Positions 7,985 through 44,720 of a stretch of 64,000 nt of DNA are shown here, one piece after another. The DNA lies in the NCBI GenBank assembly GCA_020091685.1, contig CM034605.1:7239019-7303018 (forward strand), given 5' to 3'. The translations under genes and the position numbers were made by a program. This stretch comes from Lutjanus erythropterus (lineage: Eukaryota; Chordata; Actinopteri; Lutjaniformes; Lutjanidae). Under the pieces are notes generated by a model. That model searched no databases and was not told the origin of the DNA. It saw only the letters and a program-made list of their open reading frames with translations. Within the stretch, counting starts at the first letter, position 1; every line of letters begins with the position of its first letter.

Positions 7985-8652
7985 CAGAATATGGTTCGTG
8001 GTTCATTGAGCTTTTACTCTATGAAGCTGTAATATCGCGAAACACAGCAGAGTGTTCTTAAGAACAACAGATCCAGTCTGAATGACGTCTGAAGTTTCAG
8101 CCAAGCAGAATACATCTGGCGCTATAGTCAATTTCTGTGCATTACACTGAAGCAGCACTCTGTCGAAACTGTGACACACAACATACACTACAATACCATT
8201 AATGCTGAAAGACACATATGGGCTTTGGAGCAACATATGCTGCCATCCAGACAACATCTTTTTCAGGGACATCCATGCTTGGACGAAGCTAAGACACATT
8301 CTGCACATGTTACAACAGTGTGGGTTTGTAGTAAAAGAATTTGGGTACTAGATTGGCCTGCCCACAGTCCAGACCTGTCTCCCATTGAATGTATGGTGTC
8401 CTCAGTTCCCAAAAACTTACTGAGTGTTGTTAAAATAAAAGGTGATGTAACACAGCAATAAATGTCACTGTCCAAACTTTTCGGGAACATGTTGCAAGCA
8501 TCAAATTCACAGAAAGTGTATATTTACAAAAACAATGCAATTTCTTCTCTCTGTGCTGCATTCAATTAAATCTAGGTCAAAGAGAAATTCAACAGAAGTC
8601 GTTGCACTCTGTTTCATACAGCGTCCCCACTTTTTGGAACTGGGTTGGTTGA
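7985..8652 (+). pseudogene. Degenerate Tc1/mariner transposon fragment
   Basis: The frame at 8171–8461 contains WPAHSPDLSPIE, the block around the second aspartate of Tc1-type DDE transposases, after a decayed LFQ-H-region. The catalytic stretch is broken by substitutions, and an internal deletion runs straight from SPIE into the last codons. The 3' untranslated part follows, and the terminal inverted repeat ends near 8652 (GTCCCCACTTTTTGGAACTG). The left terminal repeat was not found. The MITE at 27867–28138 has the same ends. It cannot encode an active enzyme. Confidence 0.8.
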
Positions 8653-19972: not shown

Positions 19973-20974
19973 TAGGGTTGGTATCATTGAATTTTAATGA
20001 TTCTGATTCCGCTGATTGACTTCAGTTCTTAACGATTCTCAATTTCCATTCCTCGAGTGTCCTGCATTCTTCACAGCAGGGTTGTGTGAAATGCTACCAG
20101 CTGAAACACTGAGCTAAGCTAATGTAAGTTAGATAACTGTAAAGAAAGTGGTCTTTTTTCTGGTTTCTTGAATTTGGGGTTTACTTTTACCCCTTTTATA
20201 CCAATTTTTTTTAAATGTTGCTTAAAATGTTTACTCACTGTTTTACAGATGCCTGATTCAAAATGAGCATGCATCAGTTAAAGACACCCCTTCAAAGCAT
20301 CTGCATTCTCCACTGTGTTGGGCTGACGCACTGAGCCAAACCAAGTCAAGCTAAGCTGCACAAGTGTATGGAAAAAGAGCAAAAGAGGTGCAAAATGTCA
20401 CCAATGGAAGCAACGGGCCTTCATTGCCTGCACTGAAAAAGTGGAGTAAATTAGGTGTCACGTTTCCATCACTGCCAATCAGAGCTGGAGCCAGAAGTGA
20501 CTGCCATTTATATCCTTTATCACTGCAGATAAAAGGCAAATGTTAGTGGGTGTTAGTGGGTTTTTTGTCTAATGTAAAAGGGGCTTTAAGCTACTTTACT
20601 GTAACAATAGAGAGTAACACATTCTGGTCAAGAATTTTGTAGAATAGCGTTTGCTAAATTGAGGTGATTATTACAAGACACACAATTTGTCCTATCCACC
20701 TGCCAATCAAGCAACTTAGCAACAGCTGAGGAGGTTAACTGAGAGTAATGCTAGACTCACAATTTAATAAGACAAAGGCATTAAGAGACAAGAAGACACG
20801 CATGCATTCAATTCACATTGCTACAGGCACAGACAGATAGCCAAGTCGATATACGGTTCGTTTGCAATACACAGTTTAATTAGAAACTAATGCCAGTCAA
20901 ATTTGTATAGGAATCAATAAGCAGAATTGGAAGTAATAATTCCTTTGGAAATTGGTTCTCAATGCTAAACCCTA
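19973..20974. mobile_element. 1.0-kb DNA transposon remnant with TAGGGTT ends
   Basis: The left end reads TAGGGTTGGTATC with GATTCTGATTCC following. The right end, reverse-complemented, starts TAGGGTTTAGCATTGAGAA with GAACCAATT. Such TAGGGTTGGTATCG ends are common in fish repeats. No transposase frame was seen, so it is probably non-autonomous. Confidence 0.5.
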
Positions 20975-21108
20975 TATGTATGAAAACAAGCTAATTGCAA
21001 TAGGTTTGCATGTGTTTGTGGAAAAGCTTTCACTTCAGAAGACATCTGAAAAATTGAAAACTGTTTCACTGAAAACAGAGAGTGAATCATATGAGACGAG
21101 ACCCTTAC

Positions 21109-21402
21109 CTTCTGGTCCACTATCGAGCACACCAGGTCCTTGACAGAGGAGAGCGACAGGTCATTGGCCTCCAGGTTCACCGTCTCTCTGGTCAGCCCTA
21201 TCTGCAGCAGGAAGGATACCCCATGGAAGGAGCCGCGGGAGTTGGTGGGGCTGGGGACGCTGTGGCTGCCGTTGGACAGCCGCGTGTAGAGCGGTCCGGG
21301 CGGGCTCGGCGACGGGGACGGGGTGGACGGCGAGGACGGGTGGTGCGGATGAAGAGAGTGGAGGAAGGCTCGAGGTAAGGATGGGGGAGAGGAGGCAGAC
21401 AT
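21109..21402 (-). CDS. prkd3: Protein kinase D3, first coding exon (98 codons)
   Basis: Protein kinase D3 is a serine/threonine kinase that is recruited to membranes by diacylglycerol and acts downstream of novel PKCs. This exon gives the N-terminus only. It has a Ser/Pro/His-rich leader (about residues 1–45), then LSNGS and NSRGSFHGVSFLLQIGL (about 46–70), then LTRETVNLEANDLSLSSVKD and CSIVDQK. The last part is the start of the N-terminal ubiquitin-like domain of PKD proteins and ends at a phase-0 AAG|GTAAGG donor. The leader plus FLLQIGLTRE points to PKD3 rather than PKD1 or PKD2. The C1, PH and kinase exons are not in the window and must lie to the left, past an intron of over 21 kb. The start is the first ATG in this frame; the acceptor upstream (TTTCTGCCAG, 21458) makes the exon 21109–21457. 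The neighbour qpct fits human 2p22 synteny. Confidence 0.92.
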
Positions 21403-21457
21403 TGGGTTTCTTCCAATGGCAACGTGAGACGCTGAATAGTGGAGGTTTTACTGACAG
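21403..21457 (-). other. prkd3: prkd3 5' UTR portion of the start-codon exon
   Basis: The acceptor TTTCTGCCAG|CTGTCAG sits at 21458–21459. An alternative AG is seven bases further in (exon start 21450). The 55 bases to the ATG have no in-frame start. Confidence 0.6.
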
Positions 21458-25805: not shown

Positions 25806-25963
25806 CTAATACTGTGGGAATGTGGGGTCTATTCTTTTTGCCCAGGCCATCAGCCCTCCACAGATGTCTTTCACAGTGACGCTGTCCACTTCTGATCCAC
25901 TCATCTCCTCCATAACCTGCACCGCCTTCTGAGAGTCATTACCCAGCTTACAGATCACATACA
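25806..25963 (-). CDS. mocs3: mocs3 exon 13, rhodanese active site and C-terminus
   Basis: After the acceptor CTTCCTCCAG it codes [15 protein letters not shown], then [17 protein letters not shown] and TAA. The persulfide cysteine is C412. Confidence 0.95.
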
Positions 25964-28900
25964 CTGGAGGAAGCAGCAGAGAGAAAACACTGAGAGGAGA
26001 CTCGTGTTGCTGTTGAAGTCCATGAAGGACAAAAGGTGGGGGTACTCGATAAGGAGGATTAAGAGTTATAGATGATGTAAATGTATGTTTATTATCATGT
26101 ACAATATTTGACATCATGTGTAATTTTATATTTCATTACTTTTCCATATCACTGCCAATATTACTTTCAATGTCATTGCCAATATTAATTTTTATTTTAG
26201 TTTATTTTAAATTTTCTATTTAACTTCTTCTAAACTCTATATTTCACTTCATATTTCAATACTGTTTTCTATTCAGTGTTACAGTAATTTTGTAGCAATT
26301 TCTGGAATACGAATTTCTTTGGGGAAACCTGCAAACAAGAGTGTTTAAGATTACGCATCATACTCGATTATGCAGAAACTGACAATATAATAAACAATAA
26401 GACTGTAAGCTAAGCTAACAGTCCTCAAGGCTAAATTTAGCTCATTGACAAGGAAAGCTCAACACAGTGACTATCCAGAACATCACCAAAATAACATTTT
26501 GAATATTAATTTCTCTAAAGCAGGCCAGCTGCTCAGGTCGACTGTGCTTGTTTTGGAAAAGGGGTCACCTAGCAACCCCATTACAACCTGCTACTAGCCG
26601 TCCAAAATAAGCCTCCAACCGGCCCAGCAGTATGAGACTACAAAGTGGACTGTGAATATGCACAAGTGGCTCTGCGTGCCTGTTCATTTCAAACAACAAG
26701 TACAGAGCTCTAAACAGTGTTTAGACATGTTACCTGGAGGCCGGCAGTCATCTGCCATCTGCCGTGTCAATTGGCTGATTCTCTCCCGAAGTAATCGGAT
26801 ATGTTCGCTCTTCCTCTCCTCTAAACTTGAGAGGGGAATGTCTGGCAGCAATATAAGGAGAGTAATTCCACAGGAGTGAGAAACAGGACGAACGTAAGCA
26901 GACAATACAGAATTATGACAATGTGAGTGTGGCTCCATCACTTAAAGGATACTGAGAGAGAAAGGTAAGTGGCATATATCCACCTCCACAAGAGGGCGCA
27001 CATCCAACAAGAGATGGGGCTCTGCATTGTCCAATATCGATTTATAATCCTGGAATTACAGTAAAACACTCATTAATGCACAAATACTGATAACTTCATA
27101 ATTAGATAGAGGTGTGGCTTTATCTTTTGGAAAAATCGCATTGATTTATATCCACAGTTAATCACGGAAACCAAAATTACTCACAGCAAATGTTGAAATG
27201 TTGCGTGGATTTGTATAAGTGGAGTAATATGAACATTTTAACTGCTTCTCCTCAAATCACAGGAAACAAAACTGTTTCTAACCGGAGGCCCTTGCACAAT
27301 CTCCATTACAGCCCAATCAATCATGATCCCCATCTCTGCGCTTAATGACTCAGCGGGTTTAAAAAGCGCCAATTCTGCAAGAAACATAAACAGATGCAGT
27401 CCACTACCACTGCTCTTGGTGCCAAATAGAACATATTATTCTTTCCCATAGAAAAACTACAGGCACATTTTAAGTCATTTCCCATTTGGGGCTGGGTCAG
27501 CGCCGAGATGTAATCAGTTTATGAATGCAAATGAAAACTGGGAAAATTGTGAGTAATCATACAATAAACAGCACTAAATACAGGGAGTCACGCAATGGTC
27601 AGCTGTTCTGTAGTATACTGTATGTTCCCTACCTGTACAGTGATCCTCTGTTCTCTGGAGAGCAGGTTGAGTTTGCGGCACTGAAACACACAGGAAGTCA
27701 GGCAATGAGAGATTTTTCTCATGATTAGTGAGTAACTGTGTCTTATCAAATGGCAATAAAGTCCAGCTCATGAGCAAACACTTACTACTTCCAAAAGCAA
27801 CTTTCTTGTAAAAATGTAAATGACCCGTGATATGAGAAGCCGCGTCAACTTTGTCTCTTAGAGCCCCAGTTCCAAAAAAGTTGGGACACTGTGTAAAATG
27901 TGACTGTAAAATGTAATAAGGATTTTCAACTTTCTTTTTACCTGTTAACCTAGTCTTTTGTTGCCCTTGTCCACACTGTTTTTGGAACATTTTACAGGGA
28001 TCAAAGTCGGGATAAGTTTACAATAGTTTGAAGAGTAGTCTTTGTACTGTATTCCACTGAACATAAGTCAAAAGGGGTTTGCAAATCATTGTGTTCTGTT
28101 TTCATTGATGGTTTACACAGCATCCCAGATTTTCTGAATCAGTAAGACCAACCTTATCTGTGGCAGCAGCTCCACAGAAAGCCTCATAGTCCACCAGCTG
28201 GGTCACACTGGGGTTCTCTCCACACACTGCACAGCCAGCCTGCTTGGGCCGCAACTTGATGGACCTGAATCTGGCGTCTTGAGCGTCAAACATCACCAGC
28301 TGCTGCCCGCAGGATGCTGCCTCGCCCAGTCAAGGAAAAGGCCACTTTGTGAAAAGCATCACTGTGCTGCTTGATTCAGAGAATCAGCTGGCGCATGCCT
28401 CATTTGTGTATGAACACCATAGCAACATGTAGCCGTTTTTGGTTGGAAAACAGTGCAACACTTCCCTGGCTGACGCATAAGGCCCAGGTGTCAGCATGAG
28501 TGTTACAATACAACACAGAAGGCAGGACAGGACAAGTCTAGTCTCTGATGTGTCTCAATATTAGAGTGGGAACACTGTAACCACAACAGATTCATAAGAG
28601 CTCTCATAGGAACAGCAAATGATAAGTCAGCAGAGTCCAGACAAAAAATTTATGCCAGTTTTGCTTTATCAGAAAGGCACAAAACAGCCTTCTCATCTCT
28701 AATTTTGTTACAATAAAAACCCCTGCAGCAGTTCTTTGTGTATTCATCCAGATGACTATGCAAGATGTTTCTGATGTAGGGTAACAAAATGGCCAAAGAA
28801 GGTACTGTATGTTGTGTGGGAGTTCAAAGGATACAGCCTTGTCCAGAGGCAACCTTGAGGACTTCCAAAGCCTGGAAGCAGCCCATTATTCCTGGAACTT

Positions 28901-30307
28901 AAAGAGAAGTGGGTTATTTTACCAGCAACAGCTATCATTTACAGATCTGACAAGCCACATCTTTGTCCTCCTTTGAAAACACACATTTTTACTTAGCTTT
29001 TTTCCACTTTCATCTACTTTTACTTAAATTAATACCCTGCTGCATATGTCTAATAATATAATCTATTGTTTTATTATCATTATTATTATTGTTGTCTGCC
29101 AATTATTTTGATAATCGATTAATCTTTTCAGTAATTTTTCAAGCAAAAATGACAAGCAAACATTTGCTGCTTTTCTTCATCATTCATGATAGAAAAATGA
29201 AGAGTCTTCAGGTTTTGGACTATCAATTGGACAGAAGAAGCAATTTGAAGATATCACTTTGGGCTTTTTCCTTTTTTTTTTTTTTTTACAATTTTTGTAC
29301 ATTTTATAGACTAAGCAATTGATTGTGAAAAATTACCAGCATGCTAGTTGATAATGAAATAGCCCTTAGTTCCAGACCTATTTTCAATATATAATTGTAT
29401 ACTTTATTTTAGTTTATTCTTTCTTGTGTGTTTGTTTTTCTAAAGTTTAATTGTTTTTTTTATTGGATTCTGTATTTATTTTGCTGTTGCGAAGCACTTT
29501 CTAACTTTCAAAAAGTGCTACTCAAATGAAATAACATTTCTTCATCTCATTATCATTATTTTAGTAGAACATCCTCTTTACATAGTTAATGGTTTTAAAG
29601 GGAAAAGACTCACCCACTCCCAACACCCCTCCATCAGAACAGTTGGTCACTGTCTCTGGCGGTGGGGGTACTGGGTACAGACATCTGTAGCAGGGGCCTC
29701 CATGGTAGTTATATACTGTCAGCTACAGAAACACAGAAAGATAAAGTAATGCTACTATTCGAGAGGAGCTGATGGACTTTTTCCACACTGATGCAAGATT
29801 TCTACCTTACCTGGCCCTCCATTCTAAGGGCACTTGCTGACACCAGGGGCTTGCCGCTGAGCACACAGGCATCATTCACCAGATAACGAGTGGGAACATT
29901 GTCTGAACAATCAGCCACAATGTCATATATGAGGTCAGTGAAGTCAAGGTGTCATCACAACATGAGTTCATGCCATTGGTTAGTCACATGTACACATTTC
30001 CCAACTGAACATCTAAAACTCTCTTCATGCAACATAAGCAGTCATGGGCCTGAATGAGACTTGGCAGCTGTAAGATGGATTCATGACAAAGAATTGGCCG
30101 GTGGCAGCGGGTCTGTGTAACACATGTAGGTTGAGTGCTTCGCAGCAGGATACTGTTGAATGAGTTGCAAGGCGTTTTCCGGCGAGAGCTGCAGGTGGTA
30201 GGGAATACACTCAACTGCTGAGTTCAGCCTGCAGACATAAAGTCACATTCAAATGCATCAAGTCATTTTCAAAAAAGCCTGGGTTGGCCCACCATGATAA
30301 TAATAAT

Positions 30308-30346
<39 letters not shown>

Positions 30347-33300
30347 AATAATAATAATAATAAACTTCATTTATATAGCACTTTTCATAACATAGAATGC
30401 AGCTAAATGTGCTTCCCAAAAGAAACAAGTCAATAGCAAATGTATTAAAAACAAGAAGTTGAAATAAAGTCCTAAAGAGATTTTTTTTAAAAAAGATTAA
30501 TACTAGTAAAAAGAGAAATCAATTATAGTTTAATAAAAAGTAATTTTAAGATAATGTTTAAAGAAAGGGTGGAATAAATTAAGAGCAAGAATATAAAAGT
30601 ACGTTTTGAGCTGTTTACTAAAACTGTCAACAGAAGTTGTTTGTCTTATGATGGGCGTGTAAGAACAGAAACCTGCTTCACCATATTTTTGCAAGTCATT
30701 TTTTGTATATCGAGTAAGCCAGCATTAAATGACCAGATGCATTTTGAAGTTGCAACCTATCAGTGGTTTGTTTAAGTAATCCAGTATAGAGTGCATTACA
30801 GTAATCTCTGCAAGAAAAAGGAAGGCACAGTGTTGATATGTGATTCAGTTCAGTTTTTTTTTTTACTTCAGGCTTATTCTGTAGAACCAGTCTTACATTT
30901 TTGCTTAACATCTCTTCTCTCTACACATCTCTATTAATTATAAGATATTTTGTACCAATGGCACAAATTAGCAGCTTTAATACAAATTATTGAGGGCTAG
31001 GGTCTTAAAACAAATATCAGGGTCATTATTGGTGGTTCAGTTGAACCAAGAACAAACTGCAAAAACAGCAACATGTGAGTTTTGAATCTGACATGGGACC
31101 TTAGTCACATGCCCCCAGTCACTGCCCTCCCTCCTAATCGTTGCCGTCTGTCTCAGCTATCAAAAATAAATACATTATCTTAAAAACACACATTATTACT
31201 CAAGATTCCTGTATTGTAAATTGTATTATATCTGTAGTAAATTATCATCAATGAACAATTAGGGATTAAAATAAGAGGGTGGCAGTGTACTGTATGTGTA
31301 GCTCAGAATTGTAACACTATACAAATGGCGCCCTCATGTGGTCACGGCTACACAGTGTTTGCTAACCACAGTAGGCCCACTGTGAGGGATAAAGGCACCA
31401 AAAACAGCCATCGCTAAAATAACATGTTTACACAATATTTGCAGACTGAGTAGAAATACACAACCAAATATAACCTGTGGTGAGACTGGAAAGCGCCAGT
31501 ATGCATTATACAGCAACCAGAGGGTCACAAAAAAGCATAGAAATACTCCAATTACCATAGTTAGAGAACATTTACTAATAATATCAAAACACCGACTGCT
31601 CTGTTTCAGGTCTGTTTGTGCAGGAACTCATTTCTCAAATGCCATCAAACACTTTGTTTCTACTAGATGACACTATAATCAAATGATATTAAGATACTTG
31701 CGACCTCTGTGTAAAGTACTTTATTCCAGTCAGTCAGTACCTTCTAACTGCAGTGGCAGCAGACAGAGCTTTGGCCTGGCCCTGGCCGTCCTCCGCATGA
31801 AGCACCTGTCTGTGCAGGTTACTGAGCTCTACCTCATCATAGTCCAGCAGGCCCAGGCGTCCTGCAGAGACACAACGACCAACAGGTTGCTGAGGCTTTA
31901 GAGTACATGTGAAAACCTGATAATGGTGGTCAGCCAGGAAGATTAAAGTATAATCAAGGTACAAAGTTAACAAAGCATGCAATACATGCAATTGTGTGCA
32001 ATTGTGTGTTGAGAAACATTGTTCTTAAACTTTTAAATTATTTGCTAATACAGGTTTTCACAAAGTGGTGAAGATAATCAGTTAGATTACCTACCAATGC
32101 CTGCTGCTGCAAGATACTGTGCCAGGGGGCAGCCCAGTCCTCCACAGCCCACAACCAGCACTGAAGTCTTGGATAAGTTTAGCTGACCTGTGGATAATTA
32201 AGATTCACTCTGTTCAGTTCATTCAGGCCATAAATCTCACTTGACAGATTGCTTACTGTACCGTATATCAGAATAACACTGTCTTAACCATCCGCACCTT
32301 GGACACCTAGCTCAGGTAGGAGGAGCTGTCTGCTGTACCGCATGATCTCCTCATTGCTGAGGGCTGCTTTGGCTTTCAGAGGGGTTAAGGGTGTCACTTT
32401 GTCATGCAACTCCAGTACTGAGGTATGACTCTGAGGGAGGAATTATTACACAAGATATAAGAAACAAGTTCAAACAGGAGCTGTGAGCCATGTGGCATCA
32501 CAGCCTTCAACAGTCTGCCTCAATAATATAATGAGCTACATTTATATCTCTCTTTACATGTCTACAGCCCATATGTCTGACATAAGGCGCTATATGTGAA
32601 AAGCTCTTCATAAGGAGGGATTTAAGTGGCTTAAGTAGCATTTACGCTGAGGGCTAAGTGGGCTCTATTTTTGTTGAAACATACACATTTATTTTGGACG
32701 TTTTCAAATGCCGATTTTTCTAATACTTTTCTTTTCCCTTATGTGATAAGAAGACATGTATGTGTTTTTACTTGTTTGTTACTGACTGTTATTAACTTAT
32801 TTGTTAACTGAGAAGCATGTGAATATATGAATATAGCACTGCATTCTTAGATTGCTTTAATGTGCAATATTGTCTTAACATCATGTGTATCTATGTGAAG
32901 TATGTATATGCGTTTATATGTGTTATGTTTTACTGGAAAGCACACTGCATTTGCCTGAAACATACTTGCAATTAAATTTGATTCATTTATTCATTCAGTC
33001 ATGTGCAACATTACATTTAATATCATGTGCAATTTTACTTTCAATATATTGCCAATACTACTTTTCTACTGTACTTTACTGAGTTTACTTTTTTAACATA
33101 ATTTATCTTACTTTCATTCGTATAGTACATGGGTTTTACATTCACTCCTCACGTACTTTATATTTAAAACTCTATTGTTTTTATTGTTATGTTACTGTAA
33201 TTTTTCAGCAAATTGGATTAATTAAGTTTTATCTTATCTCATTTCTTATTTACATATTTTCTTGTATACATGAGTATGTGATGCTTATCTTTACAGCACC

Positions 33301-34311
33301 GGCAATTAAGGATGTGTGTTTGCCACCTGATGACTGGCATAAATACCTACATCTATATGGACTATATGCTCTGTGTTATTTTAGGTGTCATGTGTCTCTT
33401 CTCTGTTTCATGATGCATGTGATGATGCCGATGTTGATGATGATGATACGGTGACAGTAACAGTATATATTATACTTGTTGTGTTAATGATGATAATGAT
33501 GATGATGATAGTATATGCTACACTGCGGCATCGACCTTCATGGTACCTGTGCCGATGCCCAGTATTATTGAGACTGTGATTTCCTTTCGATGGTGATGTG
33601 TATTACACTGATAAGGATAAAGTTCTTAAGAAATGTTTGCATTTGTATTTTGTATTTTTATTTAAATATGTTAATGCTCACTACATTATTACAGGCAGAG
33701 TTATGATGGACACTCATTAATCTGCATGCCTCTAGCTGCATCTGTGCAAAGGTGCAAGCCATCCTGCACACAGGTTTATGTTAACTACTATATGTTTTTG
33801 TGTCTATGAGCTTTTGTATGGTTTGTTGTGTGTTTTTACACTTGCTGCAGCACAAACTGTCCTCTAAGAAGAGTAATTAACTAAACTGAATTAAATATTA
33901 CTGGGACCATTTCTTACTGTGTTGTGATATTTAATATTTCCCTCCCTAAACTACACATCATCTTCAGGACAATTAGGTACCTCGCCTGCTTGCTAACGAG
34001 TTAGGTTCATTTTAAGATTGGAGTTATGTTCCATGGCAGACTATGAACAATGTTTGCTAACGTTATGTAAACTACAGTAGACAACAAGGATGCCACAATA
34101 ATATTAAAGTTAGCTGCAACATACATGCAAAGGTGCTACATAAAAATGAAGAAAATAAAGGCACAGCCTGTATATCTGAACAAGCAATGAAGCTCAGCAT
34201 CCATTAAAACTTTCGTACCTTTTCCAGTTGTGCCAGTTTATTCTTCAGAGCAGAAAGCTCTCTCTCTTTCTGCTGGAGCTCTGCCTTCAAGCGGCACAAC
34301 TCTTCAGTCAT
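25806..34311 (-). CDS. mocs3: Adenylyltransferase and sulfurtransferase MOCS3 (UBA4), 13 exons, 459 aa
   Basis: Cytosolic enzyme that adenylates and then thiocarboxylates the C-terminus of MOCS2A (molybdopterin synthesis) and URM1 (2-thiolation of tRNA wobble uridine). Joined exons: 34311–34219, 32430–32298, 32187–32095, 31861–31741, 30228–30154, 29928–29811, 29722–29614, 28897–28835, 28316–28153, 27680–27633, 27049–26953, 26841–26734, 25963–25806. They total 1,380 nt including TAA, with no frame break. Residues 1–31 are a coiled-coil-like leader. VVGCGGLG (87–94) is the ATP loop of the E1 fold. C222/C225 and C297/C300 are the zinc CxxC pairs, C239 (TNCSDGG) is the E1-like cysteine, and C412 (CKLGNDS) is the rhodanese persulfide cysteine, all at human numbering. 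The protein ends FPQY as in other vertebrates. Introns 5, 8 and 11 look U12-type. It ends about 1.7 kb upstream of the prkd3 promoter on the same strand and is divergent from qpct. Confidence 0.95.
26095..26335 (+). repeat. Dispersed repeat in mocs3 intron 12, LINE 3'-tail-like
   Basis: ATCATGTGTAATTTTA, TATTACTTTCAAT and a late AATTTCTTTGGGGAA align in order with 32990–33240 in mocs3 intron 1. Both resemble the 3' tail of RTE/Rex3-type fish LINEs (…TGTAACAG..AATTTC…GGGA). No coding remains. Confidence 0.4.
26734..26841 (-). CDS. mocs3: mocs3 exon 12, middle of rhodanese domain
   Basis: It codes (N)[17 protein letters not shown], then [14 protein letters not shown], between the U12-type acceptor TGCTGCCAG and the donor CCTCCAG|GTAACA. 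It starts in phase 1; the split codon AAC is completed by exon 11. Confidence 0.9.
26842..26952 (-). other. mocs3: mocs3 intron 11, U12-type (GT–AG), 111 bp
   Basis: The donor is GTATCCTTT (26952–26944), a perfect match to the minor-spliceosome 5' site. A CTCCTTATA motif about 12 nt before the AG fits the U12 branch site roughly. Splicing here restores FSLNIPLSSL; no U2-type donor in the vicinity does. Confidence 0.8.
26953..27049 (-). CDS. mocs3: mocs3 exon 11, start of rhodanese domain
   Basis: It codes [19 protein letters not shown], then [13 protein letters not shown], between the acceptor TCCAG|GATTAT and the U12-type donor. Confidence 0.93.
27633..27680 (-). CDS. mocs3: mocs3 exon 10 (16 codons)
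   Basis: It codes [16 protein letters not shown] between GTTTCAG|TGCCGC and ACAG|GTAGGG. It links the E1-like part to the rhodanese domain. Confidence 0.9.
27867..28138 (+). mobile_element. Tc1/mariner-derived MITE in mocs3 intron 9
   Basis: It begins CAGTTCCAAAAAAGTTGGGA and has the subterminal word TTTGCAAATCATTGTGTTCT. It ends ACACAGCATCCCAGATTTTC, a decayed inverted copy of the start. These are the ends of the transposon fragment at 7985–8652. It is 272 bp with no coding part, and its right end lies about 13 bp from the exon 9 splice donor. Confidence 0.8.
28153..28316 (-). CDS. mocs3: mocs3 exon 9, second zinc CxxC
   Basis: It codes (S)[19 protein letters not shown], then [18 protein letters not shown] and [14 protein letters not shown]297 and C300 form the second zinc pair. 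It follows a U12-type intron and ends at GATAAG|GTTGGT. Confidence 0.95.
28317..28834 (-). other. mocs3: mocs3 intron 8, U12-type (GT–AG), 518 bp
   Basis: The donor GTATCCTTT (28834–28826) is perfect for the minor spliceosome. TTTTCCTTGAC (28339–28329) matches the U12 branch consensus TTCCTTRAC, 13 nt before the acceptor GAGGCAG. Splicing gives [16 protein letters not shown] in frame. Confidence 0.88.
28835..28897 (-). CDS. mocs3: mocs3 exon 8 (21 codons)
   Basis: It codes [20 protein letters not shown] and part of G268, the helix after the catalytic cysteine in E1-like folds. Acceptor CTTTAAG|TTCC, donor GGCT|GTATCCTTT. Confidence 0.9.
29092..29380 (-). mobile_element. Family B (hAT-like) MITE in mocs3 intron 7, reverse orientation
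   Basis: Read on the minus strand it has ACATTTTATAG-like and TTTGGGC-region words and ends CGATTATCAAAATAATTGGC, matching the family B copies elsewhere. A poly-T of about 18 lies at 29270–29287. Confidence 0.65.
29614..29722 (-). CDS. mocs3: mocs3 exon 7, first zinc CxxC and catalytic Cys239
   Basis: It codes [18 protein letters not shown], then [19 protein letters not shown]222/C225 bind zinc and C239 is the E1-like cysteine. Acceptor CTGTAG, donor GTGG|GTGAGT. Confidence 0.96.
29811..29928 (-). CDS. mocs3: mocs3 exon 6
   Basis: It codes [20 protein letters not shown], then [19 protein letters not shown], ending CCAG|GTAAGG. The coding side is unmistakable, but no AG acceptor exists upstream; the 5' edge given here is the one that keeps the frame and family sequence QQYD. 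Confidence 0.88.
29929..30153 (-). other. mocs3: mocs3 intron 5, U12-like with non-AG 3' end, 225 bp
   Basis: The donor is GTATCCTGC (30153–30145), seven of nine bases as in the U12 consensus. CACCTTGAC ends about 15 nt before the predicted acceptor and resembles the U12 branch site. The minus strand has no AG from about 30003 down to the exon, and an in-frame TGA lies just upstream (GATGACACC). The frame-preserving 3' end reads CTCAT, that is GT–AT. Confidence 0.65.
30154..30228 (-). CDS. mocs3: mocs3 exon 5
   Basis: It codes (R)[19 protein letters not shown], then LQLIQ and CA of the next codon. Acceptor GTCTGCAG, donor the U12-like GTATCCTGC. Confidence 0.9.
30297..30925 (-). pseudogene. 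L2-type LINE 3' fragment with (TTA/TTG)n tail
   Basis: The minus-strand frame (30911–30696) contains [20 protein letters not shown], the conserved DYCNALxxGLP..L.RLQ block near the end of non-LTR reverse transcriptases. Downstream comes the usual 3' end, GTGCTATATAAATGAAGTT (near 30380), and then an ATT/GTT microsatellite tail (30297–30363). It is 5'-truncated as LINEs usually are and lies in mocs3 intron 4. It is not functional. Confidence 0.8.
31741..31861 (-). CDS. mocs3: mocs3 exon 4
   Basis: It codes (G)[20 protein letters not shown], then [19 protein letters not shown], with the SNLxRQ motif of the E1 superfamily (Arg contacting ATP). Acceptor CTCTGCAG, donor AGAAG|GTACTG. Confidence 0.95.
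32095..32187 (-). CDS. mocs3: mocs3 exon 3, nucleotide-binding loop
   Basis: It codes [19 protein letters not shown], then [18 protein letters not shown] is the glycine-rich ATP loop. Acceptor ATCCACAG, donor CATTG|GTAGGT. Confidence 0.95.
32298..32430 (-). CDS. mocs3: mocs3 exon 2
   Basis: It codes [20 protein letters not shown], then [21 protein letters not shown]. The [12 protein letters not shown] motif begins the E1-like domain. Acceptor CCCTCAG, donor CCAAG|GTGCGG. Confidence 0.95.
32990..33240 (+). repeat. Dispersed repeat in mocs3 intron 1, LINE 3'-tail-like
   Basis: It shares ordered words with 26095–26335 (ATCATGTGCAATTTTACTTTCAAT; GTTACTGTAATTTTTCAGCAA). It ends GGATTAATTAAG followed by TTATCTTATCTCA, like the short tails of RTE/Rex3-type LINEs. 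Confidence 0.45.
33411..33515 (+). repeat. GAT-rich simple repeat in mocs3 intron 1
   Basis: Interrupted runs of GAT/ATG, for example GATGATGATGATA and ATGATGATGATGATAG. No gene is implied. Confidence 0.75.
34219..34311 (-). CDS. mocs3: mocs3 exon 1 (31 codons)
   Basis: It codes [19 protein letters not shown], then [12 protein letters not shown], an amphipathic helical leader like that of other MOCS3 proteins. The ATG (34311–34309) is preceded by GCCGCC, a good Kozak context. Donor AAAAG|GTACGA. Confidence 0.95.

Positions 34312-35507: not shown

Positions 35508-44720
<9,213 letters not shown>

Follow-up and report, generated by a model that had tools for sequence, protein, structure and literature searches.

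We analysed a 64,000-nucleotide stretch of the genome of Lutjanus erythropterus (assembly GCA_020091685.1, 938 Mb in 444 contigs), referred to below as the window, which lies on contig C15 (CM034605.1). The analysis revealed a complete mocs3 gene on the minus strand, identified by its open frame and domain matches, in which three of the twelve introns carry signals of the minor, U12-type class. A sequence-only reading of the same DNA had proposed introns 5, 8 and 11 as U12-type. For introns 5 and 8 the assignment has good support from both donor and branch sequences, and for intron 11 it is probable on account of a perfect donor, the branch candidate of this intron (CTCCTTATA) being poor. Taken together, we regard it as likely that this fish has a functional mocs3 gene whose introns 5, 8 and 11 are removed by the minor spliceosome, that intron 5 has GT-AT termini, and that the human gene is a retrocopy. 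Our confidence in this joint statement is lowered because it holds only if both the assignment of intron 11 and the GT-AT end are right, and because of the A at position -1 in two of the introns and the ends of intron 8, which are not fixed by alignment.

MOCS3 proteins are E1-like and rhodanese enzymes that activate URM1 and MOCS2A and transfer sulfur to both. The 13 exons of the mocs3 coding span (25806-34311, minus strand), joined from 34311 to 25806, give 1380 nucleotides (nt) from ATG to stop with zero internal stops, encode 459 amino acids and imply 12 introns. Comparison of the product with Pfam revealed ThiF (PF00899, residues 63-298, E 6.4e-80) followed by Rhodanese (PF00581, residues 338-450, E 7.9e-8), which is the order of the E1-like and rhodanese domains in MOCS3/Uba4. 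Matches in PDB included a Uba4 chain, which we take to be that of Chaetomium, across both domains, and 3i2v, the rhodanese domain of human MOCS3. When the assembly itself was searched at the protein level, 11 matches at E<=0.001 were obtained, every one of them within the mocs3 locus; no second or processed mocs3 copy was found by this search, so the gene appears to be single-copy.

The donor sites set the three introns apart from the rest of the gene. Introns 8 and 11 begin with GTATCCTTT, starting at 28834 and 26952, and match the consensus RTATCCTTT in 9/9 letters, and intron 5 begins with GTATCCTGC, starting at 30153, and matches it in 7/9, all three at the places named by the sequence-only reading. 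The remaining nine introns have ordinary U2-type donors with stronger U1 pairing, and base -1 is G in all nine of them and in none of introns 5, 8 and 11 (A, T and A, respectively). A U12 scoring of all 12 introns, which had been suggested as a check, was performed as U12/U2 log-odds with frequencies based on the general consensus, which makes the position weight matrices approximate. The donors of introns 5, 8 and 11 scored +11.4, +17.8 and +18.6, whereas those of the other nine ranged from -7.4 to -24.4; the check turned out less favourable for the branch of intron 11, which scored low. Both strands of the window together hold 7782 GT sites, of which 20, 2 and 1 reach or exceed the scores of donors 5, 8 and 11, respectively, each count including the donor itself, and the donor of intron 11 is the top-scoring site. 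The word RTATCCT occurs 19 times on both strands of the window, three times as one of these donors, and RTATCCTTT four times, two of them as these donors. When applied to the 19 introns of Table 1 in PMC7367187, several rows of which represent one intron in related species and do not amount to independent tests, the scoring was positive for 12/12 U12 donors (6.4 to 19.9) and negative for 7/7 U2 donors. None of the three introns lies in phase 0 (intron 5 is in phase 2, introns 8 and 11 in phase 1), which is in line with the reported bias of U12 introns against this phase (PMC7367187, section 14).

Branch sites add to the evidence for introns 5 and 8. Intron 8 (28317-28834, minus strand, 518 nt, phase 1, GT-AG termini), which runs from GTATCCTTT through TTCCTTGAC to CAG, carries this branch site at 28329-28337 (minus strand). 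It matches TTCCTTRAC in 9/9 letters with a score of 13.7, and an equally good site is found in 0.0012 of random windows. The full U12 branch match that had been claimed 13 nt before the end of this intron was found there as TTTTCCTTGAC, the branch A lying 13 nt from the intron end, within the optimum distance of 11-13 nt given in a passage of PMC3584512. The branch-site candidate of intron 5, CACCTTGAC (29943-29951, minus strand), matches 7/9 letters with a score of 9.8 and places its A 15 nt before the intron end, just beyond this range; an equally good site occurs in 0.0052 of random windows. The branch score alone does not separate the published classes, ranging from 9.0 to 13.7 in U12 and from -8.0 to 13.7 in U2 introns.

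The boundaries of intron 5 (29929-30153, minus strand, 225 nt, phase 2), a probable U12-type intron running from GTATCCTGC through CACCTTGAC to CAT, were examined over a wide range by aligning to Uba4 the joined exons 5 (30154-30228, minus strand, LNSAVEC..LIQQ) and 6 (29811-29928, minus strand, conserved with Uba4) for each donor/acceptor pair that keeps the frame and avoids a stop, whatever its termini (3722 pairs). Five shifts of one boundary pair reached the full score of 183, and among these only GT...AT (30153-29929) has a GT donor; Uba4 aligns ungapped across the junction. The conserved protein stays ungapped with a GT donor only if intron 5 ends in AT, which the sequence-only reading had missed. 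The best GT-AG pair scored 134 and the best AT-AC pair 167, and both were rejected against 183 for GT-AT. The best GT-AC reading, which ends at 29938, is in frame, adds three residues, scores 169 and would place the acceptor 6 nt after the branch A. A passage of PMC8280824 lists GT-AT among G-type human minor introns, and 2.7% of zebrafish U12 introns have termini outside GT-AG, GC-AG and AT-AC (PMC7367187, Table 2 and section 17). A GT-AT end is thus rare among minor introns but has precedents, and it speaks against ordinary U2-type splicing of intron 5.

Intron 11 (26842-26952, minus strand, 111 nt, phase 1, GT-AG termini), running from GTATCCTTT through CTCCTTATA to CAG, is likewise placed by protein conservation. 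It separates exon 11 (26953-27049, minus strand), which holds the start of the rhodanese domain and aligns to human MOCS3 (3i2v), from exon 12 (26734-26841, minus strand), and the junction FSLNIPL aligns to 3i2v free of gaps. When 77 boundary pairs of six terminus classes, kept from the range searched, were aligned to human MOCS3, the score was 167 for the modelled GT-AG pair, 165 for an AT-AC pair, 152 for a GT-AT pair and 127 for the next GT-AG pair. The AT-AC reading (26950-26840) has a donor, ATCCTTTAA, that suits neither class.

Genes for the minor small nuclear RNAs (snRNAs) were found in the same assembly above the Rfam cut-off, with one locus each for U12, U11 and U6atac and two for U4atac; the two U4atac loci sit on contigs C24 and C6. 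Within the window, the number of Rfam matches at gathering scores was zero. In the proposed mechanism, U11 and U6atac would read the GTATCCT donor of introns 5, 8 and 11, U12 would read the CCTTRA branch region, and intron 5 would be handled as a G-type minor intron with its GT-AT terminus; that the minor spliceosome removes all three is what their sequences, the reading frame and the snRNA genes point to. Duplex energies were computed with U11, U12 and U6atac from the fish's own genome and with the general U1 5' end. U1 pairs with the donors of introns 5, 8 and 11 at -1.3 to -2.3 kcal/mol, compared with -5.6 to -11.5 for the other nine. The corresponding values for U6atac are -4.6, -6.8 and -6.4 kcal/mol, and the best of the other nine is intron 7 at -5.6.

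Several observations weigh against this interpretation. U6atac pairs more strongly with intron 7 (-5.6) than with intron 5 (-4.6), and U11 fails to separate the classes, giving -3.5, -5.3 and -5.2 for introns 5, 8 and 11 and -8.0 and -5.2 for introns 7 and 9. Pairing of U12 with the branch region is no more discriminating, at -6.0, -10.1 and -8.3 kcal/mol for introns 5, 8 and 11 and at -6.1, -5.9 and -8.7 for introns 1, 9 and 12. Introns 5 and 11 carry A at -1, a state disfavoured in U12 introns of phases 1 and 2 (PMC7367187, section 14), and the matrices used for scoring are approximations. A base error or a local variant could account for the AT end of intron 5. At the junction of intron 8, between exons 8 (28835-28897, minus strand) and 9 (28153-28316, minus strand) of the gene model, the Uba4 alignment has a gap at query residues 267-283 (it stops at 266 and resumes at 284), and 26 in-frame GT-AG, GC-AG or AT-AC pairs lie near the intron ends. 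Because the junction is without alignment cover, these pairs were listed unscored, and intron 8 is delimited by the frame and by its strong consensus donor and branch. The claim that the donors restore conserved protein therefore holds by alignment for introns 5 and 11 and lacks aligned residues at the junction of intron 8. The weak branch-site candidate of intron 11, CTCCTTATA (26852-26860, minus strand), matches 6/9 letters. Its score of 2.2 is lower than that of any of the 12 published U12 introns scored (9.0 to 13.7) and is equalled in 24% of random windows; it has T at the branch position of the model, the nearest A's lying 12 and 10 nt before the intron ends, and its contiguous pairing with U12 (-8.3 kcal/mol) leaves no bulged A.

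The weak branch invites an alternative in which only introns 5 and 8 are minor, and intron 11, despite its U12-like donor, is spliced by the major spliceosome or stands between the two classes. The 3' end of intron 11 is pyrimidine-rich (Y=0.75, with 0.80 and 0.90 in introns 6 and 12 and 0.70 and 0.55 in introns 5 and 8), and conversion of U12 to U2 introns is documented and commoner for GT-AG introns, according to a passage of PMC2831892. However, its donor is the best U12 fit among all GT sites of the window, U1 pairs with it at just -2.3 kcal/mol, and the other placements are either far lower in score on human MOCS3 (the next GT-AG pair) or depend on the ill-fitting donor ATCCTTTAA (the AT-AC pair). 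We therefore hold this alternative to be quite unlikely. Intron 5 may on its part be minor and have termini other than GT-AT, if the sequenced end is a base error or a rare variant in place of the normal CAG or CAC, or if the protein has a small insertion accompanied by another acceptor. The rarity of GT-AT favours such an explanation, as does the in-frame GT-AC reading to 29938 described above, but this reading would leave the acceptor only 6 nt from the branch A, a passage of PMC3584512 describes GT-AC as disfavoured, GT-AG pairs reach no more than 134, and Uba4 runs ungapped across the GT-AT junction, so that we consider a different end unlikely, though to be kept in mind.

It could also be argued that the donors of introns 5, 8 and 11 are chance matches in an ordinary U2-type gene, as U12-like words do occur elsewhere in the window. 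Against this, the alignment fixes the places of introns 5 and 11, and therefore each donor match is tested once; donors of this quality are found at 20, 2 and 1 of the 7782 sites, and the branch sites rank within the best 0.5% (intron 5) and 0.1% (intron 8) of random windows. Coincidence is thus a very improbable explanation. Assignment of introns 5, 8 and 11 to the minor class, with a GT-AT end in intron 5, remains the reading that we prefer.

Retention of intron 5, 8 or 11 adds 24, 3 or 3 further codons, respectively, before a stop. The protein would break within the ThiF match after residue 171 (intron 5) or 268 (intron 8) and within the rhodanese match after residue 371 (intron 11), and failure of minor splicing would be expected to truncate Mocs3 within its E1 or rhodanese domain. 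Because retention of any one of these introns leads to an early stop, sulfur transfer by Mocs3 would depend on minor splicing in this animal, provided that the introns are spliced as predicted. To this extent the earlier proposal that sulfur transfer depends on the minor spliceosome may stand for the fish; it does not extend to people, in whom MOCS3 is a single exon, as stated in a passage of PMC10135228. If this is true, defects of the minor spliceosome could deprive such animals of tRNA thiolation and of molybdoenzyme activity, and would not do so by the same route in people.

The neighbourhood of the gene sheds light on its history. In the window, mocs3 is flanked by two genes, one on the minus strand for a protein kinase D and one on the plus strand for a glutaminyl cyclase. 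The former is represented by a PRKD ubiquitin-like domain (20968-21447, minus strand) and runs off the left end of the window, its C1 and kinase domains lying further left (L028-L030); it is presumably prkd3 rather than prkd1, as residues of human PRKD3 fit better than those of PRKD1. The latter, qpct (39147-39566, plus strand; PDB match to glutaminyl-peptide cyclotransferase, E 7.5e-34), is oriented divergently from mocs3, and its last exon presumably lies near 43.7-43.8 kb, judging from its residues. We assume that human PRKD3 and QPCT are strictly adjacent. Passages of PMC7795678 and PMC12586663 place both human genes in 2p22.2, and the 2p22.2 genes named in the latter, a list of associated genes and not a full map, exclude MOCS3; human MOCS3 is described as a single-exon gene in 20q13.13 in section 7.2 of PMC10135228.

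Since the human gene consists of one exon and maps to chromosome 20, and the neighbours of the fish gene, prkd3-like and qpct, have human counterparts that share 2p22.2, human MOCS3 is probably a retrocopy that replaced its parent, and the present genome keeps the parent, the direction and date of this replacement being our inference. Retroposition on the way to human would have removed any minor introns at once. It is possible, and we propose it only tentatively, that an ancestral vertebrate mocs3 lay between prkd3 and qpct with three minor introns and that a retrocopy in the human lineage cut its tie to the minor spliceosome in one step. If true, both tRNA thiolation and the synthesis of the molybdenum cofactor depended on minor splicing through ancestral mocs3, the gene would provide a clean case of minor-splicing dependence removed by retroposition, and animals that keep the parent and those that lack it would form a natural experiment on such dependence in an essential metabolic gene.

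The wider synteny with human 2p22 looks broken, as suggested by a forkhead gene, presumably foxa1-like, that carries Forkhead_N and HNF_C domains (L026:4412-5587, minus strand) and lies 44-46 kb to the left of the window, and by a SAM-domain gene (L031) 7.5 kb to the right of the window. On the plus strand of the window, positions 8093-8458 hold a fragment of a DDE_3 transposase (Pfam E 3.3e-9), which we take to be Tc1/mariner-like. Repeats were also observed within other introns of mocs3. Intron 4 contains an AAC/AAT trinucleotide repeat at 30298-30363, about 70-135 nt upstream of exon 5 in transcript order. Intron 9 contains a dispersed repeat at 27856-28143 with, besides the locus itself, at least 45 further matches in the same genome (40 of 746 candidates scored). 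At least 41 of them match 27949-28143 at 70-87% identity, and at least four match 27856-27941. As the latter lie on the opposite strand at sites already matched by 27949-28143, inverted repeats as in a short DNA transposon are suggested.

If minor introns make up 0.28-0.5% of all introns, finding at least three among 12 has a probability of 4.7e-6 to 2.7e-5; of these shares, 0.28% is a rough figure and 0.5% the upper bound given in papers. The sequence-only reading had spoken of a strong concentration, and the concentration in mocs3 is real, yet it has precedents and equals the top of the human and mouse range without exceeding it. Two minor introns are found in 50 genes each of human and mouse and three in 3/714 human and 3/666 mouse genes (PMC6717393, section 5), and clustering of minor introns was significant in 21/21 genomes tested (PMC7367187, section 15). 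For zebrafish, a passage of PMC9501576 cites 662 U12 introns in 612 genes. If our assignment is true, mocs3 ranks among the small number of vertebrate genes that carry three minor introns. Since much of the minor-intron literature consulted begins with human or mouse genes and the human gene is intronless, mocs3 is easily missed. Our literature search found no paper connecting mocs3 with minor or U12-type introns or describing it as intronless or as a retrogene, nor any connecting the molybdenum cofactor with U12-type introns; supplementary tables, IAOD and MIDB were outside the scope of the mocs3 search and may list the zebrafish gene.

In comparison with known systems, mocs3 resembles the vertebrate genes with two or three minor introns (MIDB; PMC6717393) in its donor and branch signals, in the scattering of minor among major introns and in the number of three per gene. 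Unlike the human genes in MIDB, MOCS3 could not appear on a human list, its human form being a single exon in the passage of PMC10135228 cited above. Intron 5 shares a GT donor with U12 consensus and an AT end with the G-type GT-AT minor introns listed in the passage of PMC8280824, and it differs from them in that its termini are deduced from sequence and protein conservation only. The closest parallel for the history of the gene is CCDC16. According to a passage of PMC2831892, retroposition deprived this gene of its U12 intron in early mammals and also in two lineages of fish; there, too, an intron-bearing parent was replaced by an intronless copy. In contrast to CCDC16 as described there, the present genome keeps the mocs3 parent, and up to three minor introns, rather than one, would probably have been lost at once toward human.

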